This document shows, one piece after another, positions 24,192-27,879 of a stretch of DNA of 28,899 nt. Each line of letters starts with the position of its first letter. The stretch's first letter is position 1. Origin of the DNA: a virus. The translations under genes were made by a program, and so were the position numbers. Where the stretch lies: IMG/VR virus record IMGVR_UViG_3300034198_022305, positions 1-28,899 of that record, one strand, 5' to 3'. The notes below the pieces were generated by a model. It did not search any database, was not told the origin of the DNA, and saw nothing but the letters and a program-made list of their open reading frames with translations.

Positions 24192-24902
24192 ATGACATTA
24201 CCTAAAATACAGCATCCAACGTTTAGAATTATCGTTCCATCTACTAAGAAACAGTTATTGTTTAGACCATTTCTGGTAAGAGAAGAAAAGATTCTTCTTA
24301 TGGCTAAAGCCGGAGAAGATTCAACTGATATCTTATCTGCGGTAAAACAAGTTGTAAACAACTGTTGTGAAGAAAAAAACTTTAATATTAATAAGCTAAC
24401 TATATTTGATATTGAATATATTTTTCTGAAGATTAGAGCTAACTCTGTAAGTAATAAAGTAAATCTTACATTTAAAGACTTAGAAGATGAAAAAGAATAT
24501 GCATTTGAAGTAGATTTAAATGCAGTGGAAGTGGAATATCCAAAAAATACTGATAATAGAATAGCTATTGATGAAAAGATGGGTATTTTAATGAAGTATC
24601 CAAGTGCATCAATATACGACGACAAAGACTTTATGAAGCTTGGAAAAGATTCTCTCTTTGAATTAATCATTAGATGTATTGATAAGATCTATAATAATGA
24701 TGAGATGTTTGATTCATCAAGTTATACGCGCGAAGAAATAATAGAATTCTTAGATAATATGAACGTTAATACATTTGAAAAGATACAACGGTTTATTACT
24801 GACTCGCCAACAATGAAGCATGTACTTAATTATAAGAATTCGCTTGGAAATGACCGCAAGATTGAGCTAACGACTCTAACAGATTTTTTTACATTGCGCT
24901 GA
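24192..24902 (+). CDS. 26: Baseplate hub assembly protein gp26-like
   Basis: The 236-residue product fits the T4_baseplate (gp26) family: LPKIQHPTFRIIVPSTKKQL, LFRPFLVREEKILLMAKAGE, DILSAVKQVVNNCC, LTIFDIEYIFLKIRANSVSN, then LTFKDLEDEKEYAFEVDLN. T4 gp26 (208 residues) is needed for hub assembly and is sometimes counted as a chaperone. The zero-frame protein ends DFFTLR. Just before the end lies a run of seven T that allows a -1 shift into a further 61 codons (see the slippery site), so two products are likely: 236 and about 294 residues. Short/long pairs of this kind are typical of tail assembly chaperones encoded before a tape-measure gene. Confidence 0.88.
   Translation: MTLPKIQHPTFRIIVPSTKKQLLFRPFLVREEKILLMAKAGEDSTDILSAVKQVVNNCCEEKNFNINKLTIFDIEYIFLKIRANSVSNKVNLTFKDLEDEKEYAFEVDLNAVEVEYPKNTDNRIAIDEKMGILMKYPSASIYDDKDFMKLGKDSLFELIIRCIDKIYNNDEMFDSSSYTREEIIEFLDNMNVNTFEKIQRFITDSPTMKHVLNYKNSLGNDRKIELTTLTDFFTLR
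24884..24890 (+). other. Candidate -1 programmed ribosomal frameshift site (T TTT TTT)
   Basis: In the gp26 frame the codons are GAT TTT TTT ACA, giving the heptamer T TTT TTT in the phase required for simultaneous -1 slippage. After the shift translation reads TTT TTT TAC ATT GCG CTG and continues for 61 codons to TAA at 25073-25075. The zero-frame stop is only ten bases downstream of the run. No strong downstream stem was found by eye. Confidence 0.7.
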
Positions 24903-25075
24903 GCCATAATACTCTAGAGAATTATTATAAGACTATATTTGGCTTGGCTCAGCATCATAAATACAGTATTAATGATTTAGAAAATATTATACCATTTGAA
25001 TTAGATATATATGTAAATATGTTGAAAGAATACATCCGTGAGCAAGAAGAAAAACAAAGAAATAGCGGAATGTAA
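24890..25075 (+). CDS. -1 frame extension of gp26 (tail-chaperone-like second domain)
   Basis: This frame encodes 61 residues when entered by a -1 shift: YIALSHNTLENYYKTIFGLA, QHHKYSINDLENIIPFELDI, YVNMLKEYIREQEEKQRNSG and M. The composition is that of a real helical protein, and the 'LenyYk..f.laQhHKYSi.dLEnm.PfE.diYv..L..yi.E' pattern resembles the small protein after gp26 in other marine T4-like phages, as I recall; those are sometimes labelled gp51, though T4 gp51 is longer. The frame is closed upstream by TGA at 24863 and has no ATG until 25019, so independent initiation would need CTG, ATT or TTG without a Shine-Dalgarno sequence. The stop overlaps the start of the next gene (TAATG), showing that ribosomes are expected to reach it. 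Confidence 0.75.
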   Translation, partial: YIALSHNTLENYYKTIFGLAQHHKYSINDLENIIPFELDIYVNMLKEYIREQEEKQRNSGM

Positions 25076-27879
25076 TGAAAAAAAGACGCAGCAGTAAATC
25101 AAAAACTAAACAATCAGATAATTTTAATACAGAAAGTGGTGTATTAAAATTTGTTGATAATGCGTCTGATGATAAGAAATCACCAAACCCAACGGACAAA
25201 CGACAGTCTGCAGATATCGTTGATATACGTAAATATGCTCAAGAAAAAAGCAATGGCGCAACCGGTGGCGCACTTAAGCAATTAGATCCAATTATTCGTA
25301 AAATAAGCAGCGAATCTAAAAAAACTGATAGTGATATTGCTGCAACTAAAAAAATTCTTAATATTAATGTTTTATCAATAAAGCGCGTATCTGCAGCTGT
25401 AAGCGTGTTAGAAACGCGCCTAGGAGATTTAACAGAGCAGCACAATAAAACTCTTGGAATGCTAGGCGATTTAATCTCTAAATTTGATGAATTCAAGAAA
25501 GAAACAAAAAAAGAATTTGAAAAAATAAACAAAGAGTCTAGTAATTCAGGCAGTGACCGCGGTATCGGCATATTAGATACTATAAGTGATATAGTAGATA
25601 TAGCATCTAATAAAGGAGACAAAAAACCAAAAGCAAATGCAAATGCTGCTAAAGTACCAGCAAAAGCAACAACTGTAGCAAGCGGAGCATTAAAGTCTCT
25701 GGGATCAGCTGCTAAACTTGGTGCAAAAACGCTTCCAGCAGTAGGCGGATTGGTTAGTGGTATAACTGAGTACATGGAAGGCGGCGACTTGGGTCGCGCA
25801 ATTGCATCTGGTGCAGGTACTATTCTTGGTGGGATACTAGGCGGAGTTCTTGGTTCCGCTCTTGGACCAGTTGGTACAGCAGCGGGTGGCATTGCTGGAT
25901 CTATGGCTGGTGAAGAATTAGCTAAATCTGGCTACGACTGGATTTTTGGTAAAAAGAAACCGGTAGAATCTGACACAATAAAGAAAGCGCGTGAAGATCG
26001 AGAAAAATCGAGTGATTCTAAGTCTGGTACATCAGTATCTTCTCCATCTCCTGGCATGACAACAACGTCTGCTGGCATGACAACAACGTCTGCTGGCACA
26101 GACCAAAAGCCATCGGCAACTAACACCAGTGGTGGTGGAGGCCCAAGCACAGGCGCTGTAGGAAACATGGCTACGTTGAATGCAGCAATGGATGAAATGA
26201 ATTTCACTGGAGATAGTCAGCGTGCTGGTCTAGCTGCAATTACAGTTGGTGAAAGTGGATTCCAATCAATTGCTGAAAATATGAATTATAGCGCAGCCCG
26301 AGCCCAAGAAATATTTAAGTACCAGCCTGCAGGCGGCTGGGAAGCTATCACATCAAAAGGTCCTGAAGCCGTCGCCGAAGAAGTATATGGATATAAAACT
26401 AAAAACAAAGGCGCGCAAGGTTTGGGAAATGATCAGCCAGGTGATGGCTGGAAATATCGAGGACGCGGTTTTATTCAAATTACAGGAAAATCTAATTATG
26501 CAGCAATCAGCAAAGCTATTGGAGTTGATTTAATAGCTGATCCTGACGCAATGTTAGACCCTAAAATTGCAGCAAAAGCAGCAATTGCTTTCATGCAGCA
26601 ACGTGGTTCGCCTGCAAATTTTGAAGATCAATTACGTGCTGTGGCTGGTAGCCGAGACAGCTGGTCCAAAAAGCGTGATACTTACAAAAAGTTTATGGAA
26701 GAAGGAACGTTTAAACTTGGCTCTGGCAAAAATAATCAGCAGACAGCTGCTTCTGGAAGCAGCGATGCAACAGCCACAGCTGTAGCTACTCCACCTACAA
26801 TGGCGCCAGAGGGCACTTCAGCGCCAAATGCTGTACCTGTAGAAAAAGGTGTAGCAATGCCTGGAGAAACATTTAATAAACCAGTTGCAGGGGCTGGCAA
26901 AGATTATAGTCAAGGCGGCGCTCAAGGTGCTTCAGGCACTCCAGGTACTCCAGGTACTCCAGGTACTCCAGGTACTCCAGGTACTCCAGGTATTCCAGGT
27001 ATTCCAGGTACTCCAGGTACTCCAGGTGTCAATAAAGGTATGGCTGAAAAACTGTCATCAATTGAATCTAGTTTTGGCAAGCTCGATGTGTCCAGCGGTT
27101 ACAGAGATCCAGCACAGAATAAAAGAGTAGGCGGCGCTAAAGATTCAGCTCATACGAGAGCAAATGCTGTAGATGTCACCTTTAGCGGTGATGAGGTTAA
27201 AACATTAAAACTTGTAGAGATTGCATCTAAAGCTGGCATCGGTGGAATAGGTGTATACAAACCTGGTTTTGTGCATTTAGATACAGAAAGTCGTAGAGTG
27301 TGGGGTCCAGATTATACTTCAAATTCAATTCCTAAGTGGGCTGCAGGTGCTTTACAAGCGCACATGTCTGGTCAAATGGGACAATATGATGCAACCGCGG
27401 CTAGAACAAAATCTGAGACTTCTGAGACAGGCGGTGCTGCAGGTGCAAGCGGTTCAGCAGCATCACTTGAAGGCAGTCTTGCTGAATTAAAGACTGGTTT
27501 GGGAAATATTGGTGGTATAAATTCAAAGGGAATGGGTGCAACATCACGTGGTATGTCTTCATCTGTACAAACTTCTAAAGCACAGATTCCTGGACCGCTG
27601 GGAATGGCTGGTACTCCAGGATTAGGACAGAATGCTGGTCTATTAAGCAATTTAATAGGCGGCGGCTCAATACCTCAATCTCCAATGGATATGGTTAGCA
27701 TGTTTGGAAGTCTTGTTAATGCTATAAATAAACAAGACAGTAATACACGTGCATCAAACCCAACATTTGCGCGAGACGCGTATCAAAATAATAATGTTCC
27801 ACCAGCTCTACCTTCGCAGAAGATACTCAGCGAATTATTTGGTATGAATACAGCACCAGATTATAATCCAGCAGGATAA
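25075..27879 (+). CDS. Multidomain virion cell-wall hydrolase: coiled coil, glycine zipper, GH19, collagen-like linker, M15 peptidase
   Basis: The 934-residue product appears to have this order. Residues 1-70 are basic and charged. Residues 75-165 look like coiled coil. Residues 215-285 are a Gly/Ala-rich hydrophobic stretch (AIASGAGTILGGILGGVLGS) that could insert in a membrane. Residues 365-550 are a GH19 lysozyme/chitinase-like domain: VGESGFQSIAENMNYSAARA with E393 a likely catalytic acid, then GDGWKYRGRGFIQITGKSNY. Residues 615-650 are twelve Gly-X-Y triplets. Residues 657-770 are an M15-type zinc peptidase: SSGYRDP, SAHTRANAVDVTF (H693, D700) and GFVHLD (H734, D736). The remainder is Gly/Ser/Ala-rich. 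It follows the gp26 frameshift cassette with a TAATG overlap, the place where other phages keep the tape measure. Most likely it cuts peptidoglycan during entry. No signal peptide is seen, and endolysin use is less likely. Confidence 0.85.
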   Translation: MKKRRSSKSKTKQSDNFNTESGVLKFVDNASDDKKSPNPTDKRQSADIVDIRKYAQEKSNGATGGALKQLDPIIRKISSESKKTDSDIAATKKILNINVLSIKRVSAAVSVLETRLGDLTEQHNKTLGMLGDLISKFDEFKKETKKEFEKINKESSNSGSDRGIGILDTISDIVDIASNKGDKKPKANANAAKVPAKATTVASGALKSLGSAAKLGAKTLPAVGGLVSGITEYMEGGDLGRAIASGAGTILGGILGGVLGSALGPVGTAAGGIAGSMAGEELAKSGYDWIFGKKKPVESDTIKKAREDREKSSDSKSGTSVSSPSPGMTTTSAGMTTTSAGTDQKPSATNTSGGGGPSTGAVGNMATLNAAMDEMNFTGDSQRAGLAAITVGESGFQSIAENMNYSAARAQEIFKYQPAGGWEAITSKGPEAVAEEVYGYKTKNKGAQGLGNDQPGDGWKYRGRGFIQITGKSNYAAISKAIGVDLIADPDAMLDPKIAAKAAIAFMQQRGSPANFEDQLRAVAGSRDSWSKKRDTYKKFMEEGTFKLGSGKNNQQTAASGSSDATATAVATPPTMAPEGTSAPNAVPVEKGVAMPGETFNKPVAGAGKDYSQGGAQGASGTPGTPGTPGTPGTPGTPGIPGIPGTPGTPGVNKGMAEKLSSIESSFGKLDVSSGYRDPAQNKRVGGAKDSAHTRANAVDVTFSGDEVKTLKLVEIASKAGIGGIGVYKPGFVHLDTESRRVWGPDYTSNSIPKWAAGALQAHMSGQMGQYDATAARTKSETSETGGAAGASGSAASLEGSLAELKTGLGNIGGINSKGMGATSRGMSSSVQTSKAQIPGPLGMAGTPGLGQNAGLLSNLIGGGSIPQSPMDMVSMFGSLVNAINKQDSNTRASNPTFARDAYQNNNVPPALPSQKILSELFGMNTAPDYNPAG
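26053..26094 (+). repeat. Two identical 21-bp direct repeats in the linker before the GH19 domain
   Basis: The unit GGCATGACAACAACGTCTGC plus a final T occurs twice in tandem at 26053-26073 and 26074-26094 and encodes GMTTTSA twice. It lies in a Ser/Thr/Gly-rich linker between the glycine-zipper part and the GH19 domain. Perfect identity suggests a recent duplication. Confidence 0.9.
26941..27030 (+). repeat. 9-bp tandem array encoding collagen-like Gly-X-Y repeats
   Basis: Ten tandem copies of a 9-bp unit: five CCAGGTACT, two CCAGGTATT, two CCAGGTACT and one degenerate CCAGGTGTC. Together with the preceding codons they encode GAQ GAS (GTP)6 (GIP)2 (GTP)2, twelve Gly-X-Y triplets. The unit length is a multiple of three, so copy number can change without breaking the frame. 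Confidence 0.95.

Follow-up and report, generated by a model that had tools for sequence, protein, structure and literature searches.

In phage lambda, the tail assembly chaperone comes in a short form, gpG, and a long form, gpGT. The long form arises when ribosomes shift to the -1 frame shortly before the stop of the short gene, and the tape measure gene follows downstream. The slippery heptamer of lambda is G GGA AAG and thus differs from the T TTT TTT that is considered here. For T4-like phages, Vladimirov, Gautam and Davidson, in the journal Virology in 2022, are said to have described a tail assembly chaperone (TAC) system in which the gp26 family is TAC-N and the gp51 domain is TAC-C, with a poly-T -1 frameshift in several T4-like groups. 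Later papers that cite that study refer to the T4-like TAC work and to poly-T -1 signals in the TAC-N genes of T4-like phages (PMC10885494, PMC12846349). The TAC locus of Pakpunavirus Adele and the Vandenendeviridae also has a poly-T -1 shift and a misannotated second frame, but its motif is GTTTTT and it belongs to a different phage family from the one described here (PMC12846349).

In T4 itself, genes 26 and 51 are separate and lie on opposite strands. T4 gp51 (249 aa) matches phrog_150 over positions 13-280 of 282, gp51 domain included, and the match of T4 gp26 is confined to the N-terminal part of that family (14-235 of 282), so that in T4 the short form has a gene of its own and the long form is encoded as a fused gene. 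These are the same two protein forms that are predicted in our case, where a single locus with a slip would provide both. The T4 gp26 gene (L023, 2803-3429) ends GAG TTC TTT GAG TTA CTA TAA; the two phenylalanines are kept as amino acids but are encoded TTC TTT, and the slippery site is therefore absent in T4. The layout of one short and one fused long gene fits the reassignment of these genes to tail assembly chaperones that was reportedly made in 2022.

The locus studied here lies in IMG/VR virus record IMGVR_UViG_3300034198_022305, and the whole stretch of 28,899 nucleotides that was analysed is called the window below. With gp26 as TAC-N, gp51 as TAC-C and a predicted poly-T -1 shift, the locus is essentially of the same kind as the published T4-like TAC system, and it is an unannotated candidate for frameshifting of a type that has already been described in T4-like phages. 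The link between gp26, gp51 and tail chaperones was itself published in 2022, which the first-pass annotation of this DNA did not know. Compared with the published T4-like TACs, the window comes from an unannotated metagenomic phage, and the present analysis points to a stem specific to its clade and to a Shine-Dalgarno-like element in cyanophages.

The gp26 locus and its hidden frame

The gp26 product matches PF12322 (T4_baseplate, E=7e-54), which places it in the gp26 family, and phrog_150 (baseplate hub, E=8e-58); in tblastn it matched 609 phage records. In the 0 frame the gene ends ACA GAT TTT TTT ACA TTG CGC TGA, with the heptamer 9 nt ahead of the stop codon (Table 1). The first-pass annotation had noticed that a T TTT TTT ahead of the gp26 stop lies in exact slippage phase, and the codons GAT TTT TTT agree with this. 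An in-phase slippery heptamer stands at the end of TAC-N both in this sequence and in relatives. After a slip, reading would continue as Y-I-A-L-S-H-N... for 61 codons up to the TAA at 25073-25075. The peptide across the predicted shift is DFF-YIALSHNTLENYYK, and the predicted long product, gp26-gp51, has about 294 aa.

The hidden frame matches phrog_634, the 'baseplate hub assembly catalyst' (gp51), with E=8e-25, and 582 phage records in tblastn. When fused gp26-gp51 was used as the query, the full-coverage records among the matches listed aligned in two pieces and not in one continuous frame. The gp51 identity of the frame had escaped the first-pass annotation, which had drawn the frame from 24866 to 25075. 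It is indeed open from 24866, directly after a TGA in the -1 frame, to the TAA, but 24866 marks no more than the opening of the frame, and the functional extension would start at the slip site, at 24890. That annotation was also right that the frame has no ATG before 25019, that it has no Shine-Dalgarno site and that its TAA overlaps the next start as TAATG. As possible starts of gp51 we considered TTG 24944 and ATG 25019 and rejected both, since neither has a Shine-Dalgarno site and the conserved N-terminal block of the domain would be lost.

Table 1. Features of the gp26 locus, with positions in the window.
Feature	Position	Strand	Details and evidence
gp26 / TAC-N, 236 aa	24192..24902	+	ATG 24192, TGA 24900-24902; PF12322, phrog_150
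Slippery heptamer T TTT TTT	24884..24890	+	0-frame phase X XXY YYZ; sequence and conservation
-1-frame extension, 61 codons and TAA, gp51-type domain (TAC-C)	24890..25075	+	phrog_634, tblastn, relatives
Candidate downstream stem, 5' arm GCTGAGCCA	24898..24906	+	7 nt past the heptamer, overlaps the gp26 stop; fold, pair counts, helix scan
Candidate downstream stem, 3' arm TGGCTCAGC	24945..24953	+	fold, pair counts, helix scan
Next gene, 934 aa, M15 peptidase and GH19 domains	25075..27879	+	tape-measure position; start overlaps the long-form stop (TAATG)

Conservation across relatives

Relatives were compared as 126 distinct gp26 loci whose mutual identity is below 85%. An in-phase T TTT TTT, T TTT TTC or T TTT TTG is kept in 124 of them, and gp51 is encoded in the -1 frame in all 124 distinct loci where it is detectable, in keeping with the loci first read individually, nearly all of which had both the in-phase heptamer and the gp51 frame in -1. 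The -1 ORF after the slip is 55-77 codons long in every one of the 123 loci measured. Among 68 distinct loci for which similarity in gp26 was the only criterion of choice, all have the heptamer (68/68), and the gp51 frame is in -1 in 67/67 testable loci, one contig ending too early. From the codon usage of gp26 about 55 heptamers would be expected in 124 loci, versus the 124 observed (log10 P = -44.7 if the loci are taken as independent; they are related, so this value is only a guide). Site, frame and encoded domain are thus conserved together, which answers the question whether an alignment of gp26 relatives would keep both the slippery run and the second frame.

The first-pass annotation had named relatives with a normal start for the second frame and no slippery run as evidence that would count against a frameshift. 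The relatives keep the run, the exceptions being the Vibrio phages GR28A and VAP7, which have no run of six T and in which an ATG overlaps the gp26 stop as TAATG. The gp26 ends of these two phages, GAG GCT TTC ATG TAATG (GR28A, L010 1500-1530) and CAC GTT TTT CGC TAATG (VAP7, L015 1470-1490), resemble weaker slip sites combined with a stop-start overlap, and either a weaker site or coupling may be in use there.

Candidate stimulators

The window and 65 relatives (66 loci) have in common a conserved stem, formed in the window by GCTGAGCCA and TGGCTCAGC, in which 90.4% of cells are paired, versus 19-38% in slid controls, and 23 cells are compensatory. A helix scan over all positions ranks this stem first, and the folding z downstream of the heptamer averages -3.4 in these loci, versus -0.3 in controls inside gp26. 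RNAalifold, applied to the 66-sequence alignment, predicted no pairs and no consensus structure, and the stem therefore rests on single folds, pair counts and the helix scan; we regard this candidate stimulator as well supported but not proven. An Rfam search gave no match.

Another 57 loci, of which many are cyanophage-like, show weaker downstream structure than the window's clade does, and 61% of them have an upstream Shine-Dalgarno-like element, versus a background of 12%. Within this group the Glu codon is GAG in 30 of 41 cases, versus a background of 27%. The cyanophage relatives have the Shine-Dalgarno-like GAGGG upstream in place of the stem of the window's clade. We lean toward the view that there is one homologous, ancient slip site whose stimulators differ by lineage: the window's clade would use a covarying stem 7 nt downstream, and cyanophage-type phages a Shine-Dalgarno-like GAGGG ahead of the site. 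T4, in which each form has its own gene, is without the site. The lineage-specific stimulators may well be the part of this work most likely to be new.

Proposed mechanism and alternative explanations

We consider it highly probable that programmed -1 frameshifting makes two forms of a tail assembly chaperone from this locus: gp26 as the short form (TAC-N) and gp26-gp51 as the long one (TAC-NC). A fraction of ribosomes would slip back one base at T TTT TTT near the end of gp26, probably aided in the window's clade by the downstream stem. In the -1 frame the slipped ribosomes would bypass the stop of gp26 and produce TAC-NC with its gp51-type domain. Like gpG and gpGT in lambda, both forms would probably coat the presumed tape measure protein from the gene directly downstream and act as its chaperones. 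The occurrence of slipping, its rate and the chaperone function are predictions from sequence. The first-pass proposal that gp26 acts as a short/long chaperone pair through a -1 frameshift, tying the gp26 family to tail chaperones, gains support from the conserved heptamer and the gp51 domain in the -1 frame, with the frameshifting itself predicted.

It is possible, though unlikely, that the frameshift is real and that its products are baseplate hub parts or an assembly catalyst, following the classical T4 names, and not chaperones of the tape measure protein. The database names 'baseplate hub' and 'hub assembly catalyst' agree with such a role. It fits poorly with a short/long architecture made by -1 frameshifting beside the tape-measure position, and with the weak fold resemblance of gp26 to a known chaperone: for the predicted structure of gp26 (pLDDT 88.7), the HK97 TAC 2ob9, the highest-ranking chaperone among PDB structures, comes second, although below significance (E=0.75, prob 0.72, TMt 0.42). 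A sequence profile search of solved structures gave no credible relative. The reassignment of these genes that was reportedly published in 2022 by Vladimirov et al. also argues for chaperones.

That gp51 is instead a separate small gene, with a start of its own or translated by coupling or re-initiation after the gp26 stop, and that the T run is incidental, appears very improbable to us. Many cyanophages do have an ATG 3-8 codons past the slip and a separate gene in their GenBank annotation, and the stop-start overlap of GR28A and VAP7 would suit this reading as well. However, the two phenylalanines of the slip site are the first residues of the conserved FFxxxLxHxxLExYY block, so that every ATG, those of the cyanophages included, lies downstream of where the block starts, and in the window the first ATG comes about 44 codons into the extension and has no Shine-Dalgarno site. 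A stop in the -1 frame adjoins the heptamer in 32 loci, the extension is without any ATG in 7, and the two occur together in 3 (L145, L146, L151); in such loci independent initiation cannot yield the conserved start of the domain. The selection of heptamer codons far beyond codon usage also speaks against an incidental T run. Homopolymer runs are prone to error, but a T run that was miscounted in sequencing or assembly and hides a single continuous gp26-gp51 frame, an outcome that the first-pass annotation had allowed for, has a negligible probability. It is already refuted by the relatives, since isolates and many metagenomes yielded 124 distinct loci with the same phase and no single-frame version among them.

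Implications and neighboring genes

If gp26 and gp51 are joined by frameshifting as proposed, the gp51 of several hundred records from cyanophages and other T4-like phages is most likely no separate gene but the end of gp26 that is reached by the frameshift, and those records are consequently misannotated or lack the protein. Among GenBank phages (L004, L007, L014 and L018 versus L006, L009 and L017), the gp51 frame is present, but some records give it as a separate gene that begins beyond the gp26 stop and others leave it unannotated. One slip site with two kinds of candidate stimulators also provides a natural set of variants that is useful for studying how frameshift signals evolve.

The position of the gene downstream of the predicted long form suggests a tape-measure role for its product, and annotated tape measures follow closely at this locus in HTVC008M and Cr30. 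The 934-aa protein showed no similarity to the annotated tape measures of these two phages in blastp. Besides its GH19 lysozyme-like and M15 peptidase domains, it contains a collagen-like GTP repeat. Elsewhere in the window, an ORF on the plus strand at 52-753 is made up of imperfect repeats (VLDITTAPV, VLEKVAAPV).
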